64,000 nucleotides of DNA from SAR202 cluster bacterium. Lineage in GTDB: Bacteria; Chloroflexota; Dehalococcoidia; Lucifugimonadales; GCA-2712585. The notes beneath the pieces are model-generated. The model was given only the letters and a program-made list of their open reading frames with translations, was not told the DNA's origin and did no database searches. Each line of letters starts with the position of its first letter. Position 1 is the stretch's first letter. The position numbers and the translations under genes are program-made. Positions 1-24,322 of this stretch are shown piece after piece. The stretch covers positions 1 through 64,000 of the forward strand of contig VGZZ01000002.1 in the NCBI GenBank assembly GCA_016872285.1, in the 5' to 3' direction.

Positions 1-62
1 CTTTCCCTTTGACGCTGAGCGTACTCGCCAATGCTCTCCCGGTTCACGGCTACCTCCCTGGG

Positions 63-108
63 ATTTCGGTAACCGTAGTTTTGAGACAATCACTTTATTT
101 CGGTAACC
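63..108. repeat. 12-bp direct repeat upstream of amidase, possible operator
   Basis: The 12-mer ATTTCGGTAACC occurs exactly twice, at 63-74 and 97-108, 34 bp apart (about three helical turns). Each copy contains the near-palindrome GGTAACC and is followed by a T-rich stretch. The pair lies about 75 bp upstream of the amidase start at 183, where an activator or repressor site would be expected. No convincing -35/-10 pair could be fixed around it. Confidence 0.4.
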
Positions 109-182
109 ATATTTTTAATGTCATGCGTGGACTTGACCCAGGAGGAGCCGTCACACCTATTTGTGAACGGAGGGCGTTAGAG

Positions 183-1583
183 ATGGCTAAGCAAGACATC
201 GCCAGGCTGAGCCTGACCCAGCTTTCGACCAAGCTAAAGGCTAAAGAGGTGTCGCCGGTGGAGGCGCTGGACGCCGTCTTCGAGCGCATCGATGAGGCCG
301 ACGCCGCGCTGAATTCCCACATCACCCTCTGCCGGGAGGAGGCGCGAAAGCAGGCTAAAGAGGCGGAGCGCCAGATTCTACAAGGCCAGTACCTCGGCCC
401 GCTGCACGGCGTGCCGCTGGGCCTGAAGGACATCATCGCCACCAAGGGCGTGCGGACGACTATGGGCTCGCAGGTCTTCGCCGACTGGGCGCCGGACTAC
501 GACGCCACGGTGTCGCGGCGGCTCAAGGACGCGGGGGCGGTGATAACCGGCAAGCAGCACTGCCACGAGTTCGCCTGGTCTCACCACAATAAGAAGTACG
601 GGCCGGTACGCAATCCATGGGACCAGGGCCGCGAGCCGGGCGGCTCCAGTTCCGGCACTGGAGCAGCGGTGGCGAGTTATATGTGCTACGGCGGCATCGG
701 CTCCGACACGGGCGGCTCCATACGCATACCGGCCTCGCTGTGCGGCATCGTTGGCTTGAAGCCGACCTATGGCCGCGTCAGCCGCCATGGCGTTTTCCCG
801 CTGTCCTGGTCGTTAGACCACCTGGGGCCAATGACCCGGACGGTGGAGGACACGGCCATCATTCTCCAGGCCATCGCCGGTCCGGACGCCAAGGACCCCA
901 CCACCCTTAACACGCCGCCCGCGCCCTATTATGCCGGCGCGATGAAGCGGGACATCAAGGGCGTGAGGCTGGGCGTGCCTGCCGACCATTTCTTCGACCA
1001 CGCCGACAAGGAGACCAAGGCGGCGATAGATAAGGCGTTGGGGGTTTTGGAGAAGGCGGGGGCTGTGGTAGAGGAGGTTAAGACACCCATGGCCAACTAC
1101 ATTATCCCGGCCTGGTGGACGGTCATCGCGTCGGAGGTCGCCAGCGTCCACGAGCCTTATTTGAAGAAGTGGGGCAAGACATACACGCAGTCGCTGCTGG
1201 ACGTGGCGGGGCCGGGGTGGTTCCTGCCTGCCGCCACGGTTCTGAAGGCGCAGCGCGCGCGGGCGATGATCACTCGCGGGTTCAACGAGTTGCTGCGAAA
1301 GGTGGACGCGCTGATAACGCCGGCGTCGCCCATACCGGCGTGGCCCCTAGGCGGGATGCTGAACCTGGGGAAGAACTCGGCGGAGTCGATAGGCGTGGTG
1401 GTAAGCTGCACGGGGCCGTTCAACCTGACGGGCCTGCCGTCCATGTCAGTGCCCTGCGGGCTGAATAAGGATGCGCTGCCGCTGGGCATGCAGATATCGG
1501 GCCGGGCGTTTGATGAGGCGATGGTCTTGAGGGTGGGGTATGCTTACGAACAGTTATCTCCGCCACCCCGCTTAAAAATCTAA
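183..1583 (+). CDS. Amidase signature family hydrolase
   Basis: A 466-residue amidase signature (AS) enzyme, predicted to hydrolyse a carboxylic amide in the cytoplasm. The Ser-cisSer-Lys triad is visible: Lys82 in GLKDI, cis-Ser155 in the GGSSSG loop and nucleophile Ser179 in DTGGSIR, with the 24-residue Ser-Ser spacing normal for the family. The frame is open back to position 9, but the ATG at 183 has GGAGGG eight bases upstream and removes a non-family N-terminal extension. The gene ends convergently with the ABC permease, overlapping it by 4 bp. It resembles GatA, but no gatB or gatC is nearby, so a catabolic amidase is more likely. A second AS enzyme lies at 14057-15478. The substrate cannot be predicted. 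Confidence 0.9.
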   Translation: MAKQDIARLSLTQLSTKLKAKEVSPVEALDAVFERIDEADAALNSHITLCREEARKQAKEAERQILQGQYLGPLHGVPLGLKDIIATKGVRTTMGSQVFADWAPDYDATVSRRLKDAGAVITGKQHCHEFAWSHHNKKYGPVRNPWDQGREPGGSSSGTGAAVASYMCYGGIGSDTGGSIRIPASLCGIVGLKPTYGRVSRHGVFPLSWSLDHLGPMTRTVEDTAIILQAIAGPDAKDPTTLNTPPAPYYAGAMKRDIKGVRLGVPADHFFDHADKETKAAIDKALGVLEKAGAVVEEVKTPMANYIIPAWWTVIASEVASVHEPYLKKWGKTYTQSLLDVAGPGWFLPAATVLKAQRARAMITRGFNELLRKVDALITPASPIPAWPLGGMLNLGKNSAESIGVVVSCTGPFNLTGLPSMSVPCGLNKDALPLGMQISGRAFDEAMVLRVGYAYEQLSPPPRLKI

Positions 1584-18136: not shown

Positions 18137-19312
18137 ATGACCGACCGAATCGAGGAATTTATTCGAGACTCCCAGGCCTACATAGGCAAAGAGGCCGAGG
18201 ATGTCCCGCCCGGCGCTGAGCTGGCCGACTGGCTGACCATCCGCCGCTTCTGCGCCGCTCTGGGAGACCAGAACCCGCTATACAAAGACCCCGCCCACGG
18301 CGTCGGCTCCAAGTACCACGCCATGATAGCGCCACAGACCTTCGTGGCGGCCATACGCACGCCGACGGCGGGGGCGGCTTACGTCCACAAAGACTACGGC
18401 GTCGCGACGTTCCTGACCTCGGCGTCTATGGAGCTGGTGGACGTGGTCCGGTCGGGAGACAGGTTCAACAGCAGCCTAAAGGTGACGGGTGTGAAGGACG
18501 GGCCGGGGTGGAAGGACCGCGGTACGGCGCAGGTGAGGTCGAGCGCGGAGTACCGCAACTCCTATGGCGGGCTTATCGGCACCTCGACGGGCACAGTGGA
18601 CGTGATACCCTTCGAGCGCGGCCGGGAGTTCTTCGATGAGCGGGATATATACAGCTATTCAGATGACGAGATCAAGGCGATAAAGAAGGGCATCGAAAGC
18701 GAGCCTCCGCCTCGCGGTAGGCACGTCCGGTATTGGAACGACGTGAAGGTGGGCGAGCGGCTGCCGGTGCTGGTGAAGGGGCCAATGAGCCTGCAGGACA
18801 TGATGGCCTGGAGCGTGGCCGAGCAGAAGGTACTGGCCCTGGGCACGCCTATATACCAGGCCCTGAAAAAGATGCCGGGCCGTGTGCGCGTCAACCCCAC
18901 CACCAACTGGCCCTACTGGGACGCCGACCAGGAGTTTGAGGACATACTGTCTTGCCAGGACCTGGGGTTCAAGGCGCCGGCGGGGCGCGGTATGCAGCGG
19001 GTGTGCCTGGCGGGCCACCTGGCGACGCAGTGGATGGGTGACGACGGCTTCCTGCGGTCGTTGGAGGCCGAGATGCCGCGCCACTGGCTCTACGGCGACA
19101 CTATGTGGCTCACCGGCGATATCATCGACAAGTACAAAGAGAAGGTAGGCAAGGAGTTGTATCACGCGGCGGTGGTGCGGGTCACCGGCCACAACCAGCT
19201 TAAGGAAACTATCCTGCGAGGACGAGCCGTGGTGTACTTGCCCAACCCGGGGTACCCAGTGGAACTACCCATACCCCATGAGGATTGGGCGCCGTACTAC
19301 GAAGGACGTTAA
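18137..19312 (+). CDS. Double-hotdog MaoC-like dehydratase/hydratase, first copy
   Basis: A 391-residue protein with two hotdog domains. The N-terminal one is the MaoC_dehydrat_N/FAS1-like type with GDQNPLYKDP, where the canonical hydratase motif GDxNPLH has Tyr in place of His. The C-terminal domain (about residues 195-391) begins with RYWNDVKVGERLP and has RVCLAGHLATQWMGDDG. Such proteins hydrate enoyl-CoA or act as halves of heteromeric hydratases. AGGAG lies before the ATG. It is followed by a related protein at 19356-20711 and by CoA-transferases, so a CoA-thioester substrate is likely. Confidence 0.75.
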   Translation: MTDRIEEFIRDSQAYIGKEAEDVPPGAELADWLTIRRFCAALGDQNPLYKDPAHGVGSKYHAMIAPQTFVAAIRTPTAGAAYVHKDYGVATFLTSASMELVDVVRSGDRFNSSLKVTGVKDGPGWKDRGTAQVRSSAEYRNSYGGLIGTSTGTVDVIPFERGREFFDERDIYSYSDDEIKAIKKGIESEPPPRGRHVRYWNDVKVGERLPVLVKGPMSLQDMMAWSVAEQKVLALGTPIYQALKKMPGRVRVNPTTNWPYWDADQEFEDILSCQDLGFKAPAGRGMQRVCLAGHLATQWMGDDGFLRSLEAEMPRHWLYGDTMWLTGDIIDKYKEKVGKELYHAAVVRVTGHNQLKETILRGRAVVYLPNPGYPVELPIPHEDWAPYYEGR

Positions 19313-19355
19313 ACGTTATTAGCGGTTATTTGTTAGACCTTTAAGGAGGCCAATC

Positions 19356-20711
19356 TTGGCTAAAGCAGCGCACGAGCAGAATTTTGAAGAAGCCATTCAA
19401 GAGTACCTGGAGAAGTCCAGGGCAATGATCGGCAAAGAGGTCATGGAGAACCTGCCGCCGGAGCCGCCCGCGCCCTTTGACCAGAAGGGACCGCCCTTCG
19501 AGGCGGCGCTGCGCATGGACTCGCGGACTATTCGCAACTACGCCCTGACCATCGGTGACGACAACCCTCTGTACACCGATCCCGATTACGGCAAGAAGAC
19601 CAAGTACGGCAGCCAGATAGCGCCCGGGCCTATCCTATCTCTGGTGCGATACCCTTCCGCCCACGGCGCCAAGCGGCCCGAGGGCTATCCCATGGCTAAC
19701 TTCATATCGGGCACGGCCTGGGAGTTCTACGACGCGATCAGAGTCGGGTCCAAATTCCGCTCGTCAAAAGTCACTAAAGAGGTGTTGGAGCGCAAGGGCG
19801 GCCAGGGCACCCTCATATTCCTCATTTCCGAGTGCTACTACACCGACTTCCACGGCGACATCCCTGCCAAGTGCTACGGCACGCAGATTATGGTGCCCAG
19901 GCCCGAGATGGGCGCCACCCGCGCCATGCCTAAGACCAAGCTGGGCCAGAGCATGATGTACAGCCGTCCGGCGTCCAAGTATTCGCGGGAGCAGATTGAA
20001 GACCTGGTGAAGAAAATTGAAGGGTTCAAGCGGCGCGGGCCGGAGCCTCTATACTGGGAAGACGTGCAGGTGGGCGATAAGGTGGGGCCGTTTGTGCTGC
20101 CGCCGTGGTCGCTGCAAGACCAGGTGTCGCGGCACTTCATGGACTACTGCTGCCGCGCGCCGGAGAACCTCCCCGGCGACAACTACGCCTTCGAGCCTTT
20201 CTACCACTTCGCGCTGAAAAAGACGGAATGGGTGCGCGAGCATCCCATCACCCGATGGCCCCACGAGCCGGGGTCGGAGCACGAGGACGCGCTGCTGGCG
20301 ATATATCGAGGCCAACCCGGCCCCTTCGACTTCGGCGTGCAGCGGGTGCAAATACCGCAGCGTCTTATGAGCGACTGGGCGGGCGACGAGGGGTTTATTC
20401 GCCGCATGTACATCGCCATGCGACGCCCCGTCTTCTACGCCGACGCCACGATTTACGAAGGCGAGGTGGTGAAGAAATTTACGGAGGTCCAGGAGGGTAA
20501 GGCGGAGCCAGGCGGGGTGCCCGGCAAGGCCACGTACCACGCGGTCGGTATCAAGATTAACGGCACTAACCAGGTGGGCGAGCCACAGGCCCCCGGCACG
20601 GCGACGGTGTACCTGCCGTCGCGCGAGCACGGGCCGGTGCAGTTGCCTATACCCCACGCGGCCAGAACGCCTTTTGTGCCTTACGACACGTATAGGCAGG
20701 ACTGGTATTAA
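19356..20711 (+). CDS. Double-hotdog MaoC-like dehydratase/hydratase, second copy
   Basis: A 451-residue relative of the upstream gene with the same design. The N-terminal domain has GDDNPLYTDPDYGKKTKYG followed by QIAPGPI. The C-terminal half starts at LYWEDVQVGDKVGPFVLP and ends with NQVGEPQAPGTATVYLPSRE. It is 60 residues longer than the first copy, so the two are not recent duplicates. A TTG start at 19356 has AAGGAGG upstream. The adjacent pair suggests a heteromeric hydratase, as in ChsH1/ChsH2-type systems. Confidence 0.75.
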   Translation: MAKAAHEQNFEEAIQEYLEKSRAMIGKEVMENLPPEPPAPFDQKGPPFEAALRMDSRTIRNYALTIGDDNPLYTDPDYGKKTKYGSQIAPGPILSLVRYPSAHGAKRPEGYPMANFISGTAWEFYDAIRVGSKFRSSKVTKEVLERKGGQGTLIFLISECYYTDFHGDIPAKCYGTQIMVPRPEMGATRAMPKTKLGQSMMYSRPASKYSREQIEDLVKKIEGFKRRGPEPLYWEDVQVGDKVGPFVLPPWSLQDQVSRHFMDYCCRAPENLPGDNYAFEPFYHFALKKTEWVREHPITRWPHEPGSEHEDALLAIYRGQPGPFDFGVQRVQIPQRLMSDWAGDEGFIRRMYIAMRRPVFYADATIYEGEVVKKFTEVQEGKAEPGGVPGKATYHAVGIKINGTNQVGEPQAPGTATVYLPSREHGPVQLPIPHAARTPFVPYDTYRQDWY

Positions 20712-20748: not shown

Positions 20749-21708
20749 ATGGCCCTGTTGCTAGGCGATAAGGAAGTAACGCAGGTTATGTCCATGAAGG
20801 ACTGCGTGGGCGTCATGGACGATGCCTTCAAGCAGGCCGGAAACGGCCAGACTTGGAACCGCCCCCGCTCTCGAATACGCATGCCGCGAGGTTTCCACCA
20901 TCTGATGGCGGCAGCGGTGCTTGGCAGTAAGGTCTTTGGCCTCAAGACCTACACCAGCTTCCGCGCTGGCGTGCGATTCATGATCGTGCTGTACGACAGC
21001 GAGACGGGCGATCTGCTTGCGCTGGTACAGGGCTCACAGTGCTCGTTGATGCGGACGGGTGCTGTGACGGGCGTCGCGACCAAGTATATGGCCCGTCAGA
21101 ACGCCTCGACGGTGGGGATCATCGGCACGGGGTTTCAGGGCCGGGGGCAGTTGGAGGGTGTGTGCGCCGTGCGGAATGTGAAGTCCGTTAAAGCTTTTGA
21201 CGCTGTGCCGGAGTCGCTGAACAAGTTCTGTGGGGATATGAGCAAGAAGCTGGGTATCGAGGTCAAGCCGGCCGCCAGCGCCCAGGATTGTGTCAAGGGA
21301 GTGGACATGGTCATCACCATGACTACGTCTCGAGAGCCGGTGCTGCTGGGAGACTGGCTCGAGGCTGGGCAGCACGTCAATGCCGCCGGCAGCAACCACT
21401 GGATTCGCCGCGAGGTGGACGATAACGTCATCAAACGCTCGAACATCGTTGTGGTGGACAGTCTGGAGGACGCCAAAGTGGAGGCGGGGGACCTGCTGTA
21501 CCCCATCGAGCGCGGAGTGATTCGATGGGACCAGATCCACGAGCTGGCGTCGGTGGCGGTAGGTAGGGTCCATGGCCGCGACAACGACCAGCAGATAACG
21601 CTTTTCGAGTCCCAGGGCGTCGCTATAAGCGATGTGGCGGCGGCTGCGTATGTTTACAAGAAGGCCAAGGAGCAGGGACTGGGGACGGAGATAAAGCTGG
21701 AACTGTAG
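20749..21708 (+). CDS. Ornithine cyclodeaminase/mu-crystallin family protein
   Basis: A 319-residue NAD(P)-dependent enzyme. Family blocks are GLKTYTSFRAG near residue 65, SLMRTGAVTGVATKYMAR near 100, and the Rossmann motif VGIIGTGFQGRGQL. Members include ornithine cyclodeaminase, alanine dehydrogenase and ketimine reductases. Its place between hotdog and CoA-transferase genes suggests an amino-acid-like or imine intermediate in the same pathway, but that is inference. AGGAG lies before the ATG. Confidence 0.85.
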   Translation: MALLLGDKEVTQVMSMKDCVGVMDDAFKQAGNGQTWNRPRSRIRMPRGFHHLMAAAVLGSKVFGLKTYTSFRAGVRFMIVLYDSETGDLLALVQGSQCSLMRTGAVTGVATKYMARQNASTVGIIGTGFQGRGQLEGVCAVRNVKSVKAFDAVPESLNKFCGDMSKKLGIEVKPAASAQDCVKGVDMVITMTTSREPVLLGDWLEAGQHVNAAGSNHWIRREVDDNVIKRSNIVVVDSLEDAKVEAGDLLYPIERGVIRWDQIHELASVAVGRVHGRDNDQQITLFESQGVAISDVAAAAYVYKKAKEQGLGTEIKLEL

Positions 21709-21738: not shown

Positions 21739-23094
21739 TTGAAAGGGAATGGACAGCAGGGGCCTCTGGCAGGCCTTCGGATAATCGATTCCAACACCAT
21801 GGTCGCCATGCCGACGGGGATGCACATCCTGGCGGACATGGGGGCCGAGGTGGTGAAGGTGGACAGCCACACCGTCTTCCGCACCGAGGAGGCCCGGGTT
21901 ATCTACGCTGACAACGATCCCGGCGACCAGCCGTGGAACCGCGAAGGCTCCTTCAACACGCTGCAGCGCAGCAAGCTGGGCGTCACCTTGAATCTTAAGA
22001 CTCCCCAGGGCATCGAGTTATTTAAAGAGTTGGTGGCTATCAGCGACGTGCTGGTGGAGAACAACCGGGCCGGCACTATGGAGCGGCTGGGCCTGGGCTA
22101 TGATGAGATGAAGAAGATCAGACCGGACTTAATTTATGTCTCCAACACTGGTTTCGGGCACACTGGCCCGTGGCGTCGCTACGCCGGCATCGGACGCATG
22201 TTTGAACTGACCTGCGGCCTCAGCCAGTTTACAGGTTACACCGACGAAGGGCCTCGCCGAGTCGGCAAAGCCTTCTTCGACCTGCACGTTGGCTGGATGG
22301 TGGTCTTCGCGATTATGTCGGCGTTGCACCATCGCCAGAAAACCGGACGGGGCCAGTGGATTGACTTCGCGATGTACCAGGTAGGCGTGTCTACCATGGG
22401 CGACGCAGTCCTGGACTTCATCGCCAACGGCCGCAACGGCAAGACCATGGGCAATCGACACCCCTCTATAGCCCCCCATGGCGTCTACCCTTGCAAGGGC
22501 GACGACAAGTGGGTCGCCATATCCTGCGAGAACGACCAGCAGTGGGAGTCGCTGGTGACGGCCATGGGGAGCCCGTCGTGGGCGACGGATGAAAAGTTCA
22601 GTGACAGCCTGGCACGATGGAAAAACCAGGACGAGCTGGACAAGAACATTAGCCAGTGGACGCGGCACTTCGAGAATCTGAAGCTGACGCACATGCTCCA
22701 AGGCGTCGGGCTGCCAGCCATGGCGGTGATGAACAGCCGCGAACTGCTTACCGACGAACACATGAAGGCGCGGGGGTTCTATGAGAAGGTGGAGCACCCC
22801 GCCGAGACCAAGATCGGCACCAAGCTCTACTTCGGCAGGCCGTGGAAGATGTCCAAGACGCCATCGTTTATTCGCCGCCCTGCGCCCAATCTGGGCGAGC
22901 ATAACGAGGAGATTATCGGCGATTTGCTGGGCCGGAGCAGGCAGGAGATGGAGAGGTTATACGAGCTCGGGGTGTGCGGCACTGTGCCGGACATCAAGCC
23001 CACGTATAAGCCGCCTAGCTACGACCAGCAGATGCAGGAAGGCACCCTGACCGCCATCGACACCGACTATCGAAAAATCCTGGGGTTGGAGTAA
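21739..23094 (+). CDS. Family III CoA-transferase, subunit lacking the catalytic Asp
   Basis: A 451-residue CaiB/BaiF-type protein. The N-terminal GLRIIDSNTMVAMPTGMHI and LADMGAEVVKVDS, plus SKLGVTLNLKTPQG, fit the family. The Asp that forms the acyl anhydride lies in the GxxDxxxxAxSG segment; here the segment is AGIGRMFELTCG and position 152 is Gly. The frame is intact and the rest is well preserved, so this looks like the non-catalytic partner of the next gene, as in two-subunit BbsEF. The start is TTG 21739, after a weak GAGG. Confidence 0.85.
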   Translation: MKGNGQQGPLAGLRIIDSNTMVAMPTGMHILADMGAEVVKVDSHTVFRTEEARVIYADNDPGDQPWNREGSFNTLQRSKLGVTLNLKTPQGIELFKELVAISDVLVENNRAGTMERLGLGYDEMKKIRPDLIYVSNTGFGHTGPWRRYAGIGRMFELTCGLSQFTGYTDEGPRRVGKAFFDLHVGWMVVFAIMSALHHRQKTGRGQWIDFAMYQVGVSTMGDAVLDFIANGRNGKTMGNRHPSIAPHGVYPCKGDDKWVAISCENDQQWESLVTAMGSPSWATDEKFSDSLARWKNQDELDKNISQWTRHFENLKLTHMLQGVGLPAMAVMNSRELLTDEHMKARGFYEKVEHPAETKIGTKLYFGRPWKMSKTPSFIRRPAPNLGEHNEEIIGDLLGRSRQEMERLYELGVCGTVPDIKPTYKPPSYDQQMQEGTLTAIDTDYRKILGLE

Positions 23095-23095
23095 T

Positions 23096-24322
23096 ATGCC
23101 TGGCTTAGCTTTAGACCACTTCAACGTCCTGGACCTGAGCGGCAACATCGCCGGGCCTTTCTGCGCCAAGCTGCTGGCGGACTACGGAGCCGAGGTTATA
23201 AAAATCGAGCCACCGGGCCACGGCGACCCGGCCCGCAGCGCCGGCCCCTTCTTTAAGGACGACCCACACCCTGAAAAGAGCCTTCTCTACTTCTACCTCA
23301 ACTGCAACAAACGCGGCGTGACGCTGAACCTGGAAAACTCGTCAGGGCGGAAGATATTCCTAGAGTTGGTGAAGAAGGCGGACGTGCTCATCGAGAGCTT
23401 CCTTCCTGGATACATGGCAAAGCTGGGCCTCGGTTACGAAGACCTGGAGAAAATTAATCCGGGGCTGGTAGTGCTTTCCATCACGCACTTTGGGCAGGAC
23501 GGACCGTATAAAGACTACGCAGGCAACGACCTGGCCTACTACGCCATGAGCGGGATGATGCTGACCAGCGGGGCCTATGCCCGCGAGCCCCTGAAGCACG
23601 GCCACCCCCAGAGCTACTACATGGGCGGCATCATCGGCTCCTACACCGTGTCCGCGGCGCTGTTCTCGCGATACATGACAGGCGAGGGCCAGCACATCGA
23701 CCTGTCGCTGGCCGAGTGCGTGGCGGCCCACAACTACGACAGCGCAACCAGATACGTTTACAGCGGTACTATCGAGCGCCGCGCGCCCAAGGTGGAAGCC
23801 TTTTCGACCAAGGGCATCCAATACGAAGGCATAGTGCCAACTAAGGACGGGTATATATCGCCCACTATGCAGAAGGGACGGCCTACCGCGCCTTTTAAGG
23901 AGTACGCCACCCTGCTGGGCCATCCGGAGCTTGAGAACCCCAAATATGACACGCGGCAGAAGGTGCTGGACAATCGAGAAGAGGTGGACGACCTGCTGCT
24001 CCCTATCATCAAGAACGAATGGAAGAAGTTCGACTATTACAACACGTTCATGGAGGAGGGGTTTGTGGCGGGGGTAGTGCAGACCAGCGAAGACCTGGTG
24101 AACTGCCCGCAGCTAGACGAGCGCGGCTACTTCATCGGGGTGGAGCACCCGGTCATCGGCAAGATTAAGTATCCGGGGGAGATGTTCCGCCTGCCGGACA
24201 GCCCCTGGAGCCTTCGGAGGCCCGCCCCGCTGCTGGGCCAGCACAATCGAGAGGTGTATTGCAGGGAGCTTAAGTACTCCAAAGACGACCTGGTGCTGCT
24301 GCGGCAGCAGGGGGCGATTTAG
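23096..24322 (+). CDS. Family III CoA-transferase, catalytic type
   Basis: A 408-residue CaiB/BaiF CoA-transferase. It keeps the catalytic aspartate at Asp145 in AGNDLAYYAMSG, together with LADYGAEVIKIEPPGHGDPAR near the N-terminus, NKRGVTLNLEN, and RRPAPLLGQHNREV near the end. It moves CoA between acids and so activates the pathway substrate. The ATG lies one base after the stop of the Asp-lacking gene, so translation is coupled. A 1:1 complex is plausible. Confidence 0.9.
   Translation: MPGLALDHFNVLDLSGNIAGPFCAKLLADYGAEVIKIEPPGHGDPARSAGPFFKDDPHPEKSLLYFYLNCNKRGVTLNLENSSGRKIFLELVKKADVLIESFLPGYMAKLGLGYEDLEKINPGLVVLSITHFGQDGPYKDYAGNDLAYYAMSGMMLTSGAYAREPLKHGHPQSYYMGGIIGSYTVSAALFSRYMTGEGQHIDLSLAECVAAHNYDSATRYVYSGTIERRAPKVEAFSTKGIQYEGIVPTKDGYISPTMQKGRPTAPFKEYATLLGHPELENPKYDTRQKVLDNREEVDDLLLPIIKNEWKKFDYYNTFMEEGFVAGVVQTSEDLVNCPQLDERGYFIGVEHPVIGKIKYPGEMFRLPDSPWSLRRPAPLLGQHNREVYCRELKYSKDDLVLLRQQGAI

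Follow-up and report, generated by a model that had tools for sequence, protein, structure and literature searches.

The class III CoA-transferases closest to the locus described here include two-gene enzymes: SmtAB is a succinyl-CoA:malate CoA-transferase whose name points to a two-gene class III enzyme, and BbsEF is the succinyl-CoA:(R)-benzylsuccinate CoA-transferase of PDB entries 9fn0, 9fol and 9fun. Our literature search found no paper on the BbsEF structure. In the homodimeric YfdE, Asp173 has been described as the site of covalent catalysis, an assignment argued from the D177A mutant of UctC, and the nucleophile and the GNxH loop are supplied by different subunits (both in the available text of PMC3720670). 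DddD, a DMSP CoA-transferase/lyase, is described as carrying two CaiB domains (PMC5395668, PMC7174347). An expansion of the CaiB/BaiF family, together with DddD-like members, has been reported for SAR202 (PMC5395668, PMC6306507), and the available text of these two papers makes no mention of pairing or of a non-catalytic half.

We analysed a 64,000-nucleotide stretch of DNA (the window) from a SAR202 MAG of 2.6 Mb in 83 contigs, in which two class III genes lie side by side on the forward strand. Gene A (21739..23094, TTG start) encodes 451 residues and gene B (23096..24322, ATG start) encodes 408. One base separates the stop codon of A from the start codon of B, and neither open reading frame contains an internal stop. 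Both products match PF02515 over the full length, with 350.5 bits for A and 310.8 bits for B against a gathering score of 23.3, so that the two whole, adjacent family III genes recognised in a first-pass annotation of this DNA stand as described. The nearest named records encoding a relative of A come from uncultured Dehalococcoidia/Chloroflexi. A carries a C-terminal tail of about 40 residues (window positions 22980-23091) with a 'D.DY...LGL'-like end that is common to several A subunits. In our reading, A and B very probably form a heteromeric, BbsEF-type CoA-transferase of class III (Frc family), with A as the catalytic subunit and B as a non-catalytic partner.

The first-pass annotation had placed the catalytic Asp at the column occupied by Gly152 in A (GGA codon, 22192..22194, forward strand) and Asp145 in B (GAC codon, 23528..23530, forward strand), and had taken the first gene product to be the subunit without it. 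The two residues were correctly identified and do align with each other, but the column they share holds Glu140 in Frc and Asn141 in CaiB and is not the catalytic one. We fixed the nucleophile column from several references. Wild-type CaiB (1xk6) and its D169A mutant (1xvu) differ in the aligned sequences at the Asp of 'YTADYFSG'; Frc numbering, alignment A6, the YfdE Asp173/UctC D177A correspondence and the title of PDB entry 9fol, which names a 'D178-CoA adduct', were used alongside. In alignment A6 the column holds Asp169 of CaiB, Asp169 of Frc/YfdW, Asp173 of YfdE, Asp181 of A (GAC codon, 22279..22281, forward strand) and Tyr174 of B (TAC codon, 23615..23617, forward strand). BbsEF chain B (9fn0_B) carries Asp at residue 178, a number that falls on Ala in chain A (9fn0_A); the chains are numbered without an offset, with which the residue range 5..409 of 9fol_D agrees. 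Asp178 of 9fn0_B shares one column with Asp181 of A, and 9fn0_A has Tyr171 there. The catalytic Asp that marks the class III superfamily (Asp169 of Frc and CaiB) is thus retained in A at Asp181 and replaced in B by Tyr174, and it is B, not A, that lacks it. Alignment with Frc and the BbsEF chains therefore upholds the earlier view that the two subunits differ at the catalytic residue, with their roles reversed. From sequence, we assign the predicted catalytic role to A and to the A+B pair, not to B alone.

To place both genes we compared 190 distinct PF02515-like domains from the window and 108 loci, which remained of 199 domains when identical domain sequences and stretches shorter than 150 aa had been removed. 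We collected the loci by searching with A as bait or by choosing among the hits of A, and 20 regions were fetched by choice. Five of the 190 domains, shorter than 300 aa, were excluded and four PDB references added, giving a tree of 189 rows that was built with column 185 removed and the nucleophile column kept. Window A and 9fn0_B fell in one clade of 74 rows (support 0.88), window B and 9fn0_A in another of 68 rows (support 1.0), and the 47 rows outside both included the homodimeric references 4ed9 and SUGCT (9br7). With IQ-TREE on 80 of the 189 rows, each clade formed one side of a branch with an SH-aLRT value of at least 99. The branches of 9fn0_A and others were long in this run, so the exact position of 9fn0_A within the B clade is unsure. 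Both trees nevertheless put one window subunit in each of the two BbsEF-bearing clades. The BbsEF-like pairing of an active with an inactive subunit that the first-pass annotation proposed is supported by this grouping, A with 9fn0_B and B with 9fn0_A; only its choice of the inactive member fails.

The distribution of the nucleophile follows the clades. Asp occupies the column in all 74 rows of the A clade, in 2 of the 68 rows of the B clade and in all 47 other class III rows, and an independent HMM alignment without the PDB references gave 73/73, 2/67 and 45/45, respectively. An A with the Asp is joined to a B without it in 62 of 64 pairs. The only B-clade rows with Asp at this position are L046:4751-5995 and L079:4671-5972; judged from their sequences, these B subunits might have regained the residue, and both subunits of these pairs might then be active. 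The GNxH loop is found in 38 of the 74 A rows, including window A ('GN' in 68/74), and in none of the 68 B rows.

At the Frc-Glu140 position, ten of the 68 B-clade rows carry His, Ser, Asn, Gln, Pro, Tyr or Ala, and these ten retain 36 to 42 of 42 other conserved columns. They had been considered as candidates for pairs without any catalytic Asp; this idea was dropped since the 9fol title and the CaiB/Frc/YfdE alignments show that the column is not that of the nucleophile, which all ten pairs have in A. The residue is His in the B proteins of the close relatives L004, L018 and L019, where the B of the window has Asp145. Loss of conserved columns was not complementary between A and B beyond chance (Fisher p=0.36). 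A clade apart from A consists of mostly unpaired proteins in which Gly or Ala occupies the position of Frc Glu140 (L073, L074, L075, L077, L081, L086, L089, L091, L094, L096, L099, L104 and L106), and all have the true nucleophile. The first-pass annotation had stated that its reading would fall if A clustered with a subgroup known to work without the Asp, a condition that was built on the wrong column.

The two clades are tightly linked in the genome. A B row lies less than 300 nt away on the same strand for 60 of 73 A rows and somewhere in the locus for 68 of them; of the five others (L029, L034, L047, L067 and L071), L067 and L071 have partners whose length fell below the limit for the tree, and L047 sits at the end of a contig. 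The 66 couples separated by under 300 nt comprised 61 A+B, three A+other, one A+A and one other+other. Among 60 separate pairs the order was B-A in 44 and A-B in 16, and four of 64 pairs are fused into a single chain, all as B-A (L008, L009, L040 and L043). L071 is a fifth fusion, in which the B half is shorter. Searching plasmids with a fused protein turned up no DddD, the hits bearing nothing more specific than 'CoA transferase' as a name. Distances between A proteins on the tree correlated with those between their partners (Mantel r=0.882, 0/5000 permutations), a value to which genome kinship contributes. Across 40 relatives including the source genome, the seven with a close A (E<=1e-150) were the same seven with a close B (E<=1e-130). 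Adjacency and co-inheritance also characterise the closer relatives: next to the 1 nt gap of the window stand 13 orthologous loci with an A at least 54% identical, all of which have both genes and adjoin a matching B. In one of the 13, on contig C12 of the source genome, a gene lies between the two. This is a DUF559 (endonuclease-like) gene (L004:6490-6879), and the C12 pair, with 57-58% identity, is a close paralogue of that in the window. The search of relatives thus gave no sign that the genes are rarely adjacent, which would have spoken against the heteromer suggested earlier as the simplest explanation; conserved pairing and natural fusions support it. Taken together, fusions and co-evolution suggest a physical A-B complex.

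The source genome itself has 18 PF02515 matches, two of which are halves of one gene split by a contig break (overlap of 127 nt, 99%), and 14 of its 17 class III domains form seven A+B pairs, two of them fused. In a related genome (G030), five pairs near that of the window (51-62% identical) lie on contigs C1, C2, C5, C19 and C20, a local amplification. Class-wide searches with strict cut-offs revealed no additional close orthologues; the source genome was the only one of 119 with a hit, for A as for B.

Structure models showed a whole class III fold in both proteins. AlphaFold2 gave a pLDDT of 90.0 and a pTM of 0.88 for A, and 87.7 and 0.87 for B. The best PDB matches of the A model were the BbsEF D chains (Z 40.8 and 40.6; for 9fol_D, Z 40.8, rmsd 1.9 over 404 aligned residues), tied with SUGCT at 40.0. 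Foldseek matched A to the BbsEF B/D chains with E ~1e-40 at 34% identity and to the A chain with 5e-30 at 22%. For the B model, the top matches were SUGCT, a Brucella formyl-CoA transferase and BbsEF D, all within 1 Z unit; homodimeric human SUGCT (9br6_A, rmsd 3.0, 395 aligned) reached Z 41.9 against 41.3 for BbsEF. As these are tied, the structure of B alone does not single out BbsEF, and it is the tree position that does. Fused L040 was dropped as a structure target, separate B proteins having aligned onto its C-terminal half.

On the proposed mechanism, Asp181 of A would attack the thioester of an acyl-CoA to give an acyl-aspartyl anhydride, from which an aspartyl-CoA would form on A, as described for Mct, and CoA would then pass to the acceptor acid. 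In B the whole fold is retained, yet Tyr174 stands where the nucleophile would be and the GNxH loop is missing; B would thus act as a non-catalytic partner, completing or shaping the enzyme. We infer this activity, together with the physical complex and its stoichiometry, for A and B. The opposite division of labour, with A inactive through Gly152 and B active through Asp145, starts from two residues that are real and aligned, at a column where Asp is the commonest residue (32 of 45 other class III rows without the references). It is refuted by the alignment and deserves next to no credence, as Frc (Glu140) and CaiB (Asn141) are active without an Asp there, A has Asp and B has Tyr at the known nucleophile column, and the Asp178 after which the CoA adduct of BbsEF is named belongs to the A-type chain.

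The arrangement of the subunits can be read in other ways. As GNxH is kept in A and never in B, an A-A dimer alone could form complete sites, and in a plain A-B dimer the loop of A would face the dead site of B. An A2B2 complex might accordingly be built from an interlocked A-A dimer with two complete active sites plus a B-B dimer, rather than from two A-B dimers; the nucleophile and the loop, which acts across the homodimer interface, are both A features (the loop in 38/74 rows), and B has neither. We consider this unlikely, given that the fused B-A chains place one A beside one B, that an A-B ring fits at least equally well, and that the BbsEF chain 9fn0_B lacks GNxH. The same two features would also be all that an ordinary homodimeric transferase needs, in which case A could work without B, and B could be a separate regulator, decoy or scaffold that is merely co-transcribed. 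The congruence of the A and B trees, the almost constant adjacency, the fusions, co-occurrence in the same 7/40 genomes and the deposition as one enzyme of BbsEF, whose two chains fall one in each clade, make this very unlikely. It is distinctly unlikely, too, that the complex runs another reaction of the superfamily (racemase, lyase or isomerase) instead of intermolecular CoA transfer. Alpha-methylacyl-CoA racemases share the fold, DddD with its two CaiB domains is given as a transferase/lyase (PMC5395668, PMC7174347), and none of A, B and the five fused proteins reached an NCBIfam equivalog cut-off; against this, BbsEF is the best match of A by sequence and structure, and the Asp of covalent catalysis is retained. 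A heteromeric BbsEF-type transferase with A as catalytic subunit remains our preferred reading.

The genes upstream of the pair, all on the same strand and separated by gaps of 30 to 43 nt, bear on the substrate. An ornithine cyclodeaminase/mu-crystallin family gene (OCD, 20749..21708) ends 30 nt before A and is preceded in the same putative operon by genes for two MaoC/FAS1-DH-like proteins, the second of 451 aa (MaoC2, 19356..20711) and the first, which opens a conserved five-gene run, of 391 aa (MaoC1, 18137..19312). The order MaoC1-MaoC2-OCD-A-B is repeated in four fetched relatives (L010, L011, L012 and L013; L030 is apparently the same contig as L011), and L015 has MaoC1-MaoC2-A-B without OCD. 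A motif scan found the canonical hydratase motif in neither MaoC-like protein; 'GD.NPLY.DP' is present. These neighbours (18137-20711) are possibly another two-subunit enzyme. The operon suggests that an acid is handled as its CoA thioester beside the two MaoC-like proteins, and this acid probably feeds, or derives from, the MaoC-like and cyclodeaminase-like proteins.

More broadly, and with somewhat less than even confidence, we propose that much of the CaiB/BaiF expansion in Dehalococcoidia (SAR202 and relatives) is an ancient two-part system and not a set of independent enzymes. The A clade would carry the chemistry, and the B clade would be a bacteria-wide pseudoenzyme clade that lost the nucleophile early and serves as a co-evolving partner setting the substrate range. 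If so, the seven pairs of the source genome, 14 of its 17 class III domains, would be such systems, and published counts of CaiB/BaiF genes as separate CoA-transferases (in the available text of PMC5395668 and PMC6306507) may be too high if many are of the B type. A simple rule follows for the many 'CaiB/BaiF' genes that Chloroflexota of the deep ocean and of groundwater carry, namely whether the Frc-169 column holds Asp and whether the protein falls in the A or the B clade. The assignment of the catalytic subunit is also corrected; with A in this role, a test designed on the first-pass version would mutate the wrong residue.

Compared with known systems, the homodimeric Frc/YfdW, CaiB, YfdE and SUGCT share their fold and nucleophile column with A, but unlike A and B they are built from one type of subunit, which bears an Asp of its own. 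The active Asp602 of DddD lies in its second domain. By its description in PMC7174347, DddD resembles the natural B-A fusions in having two CaiB-type domains in one chain, and it differs from the window pair in being fused and in its substrate, DMSP. SptAB, the succinyl-CoA:phthalate CoA-transferase named in PMC11659651, has a name that likewise suggests a two-gene class III enzyme. BbsEF is the closest, with two class III subunits of which one falls in each clade and only one bears the nucleophile. Its A-type chain has Asp178 and Gly149 where window A has Asp181 and Gly152, and its B-type chain has Tyr171 and Asp142 where window B has Tyr174 and Asp145. Window A shares about 34% identity with the corresponding BbsEF chain and has a longer C terminus, and its neighbours are MaoC-like and cyclodeaminase-like instead. 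A Pfam scan of ten neighbouring window proteins found no acyl-CoA dehydrogenase or thiolase; as neighbours of benzylsuccinate beta-oxidation are absent from these ten, we do not file the pair as BbsEF itself. Heteromeric class III transferases are already known, BbsEF and others, and the window pair would join them.
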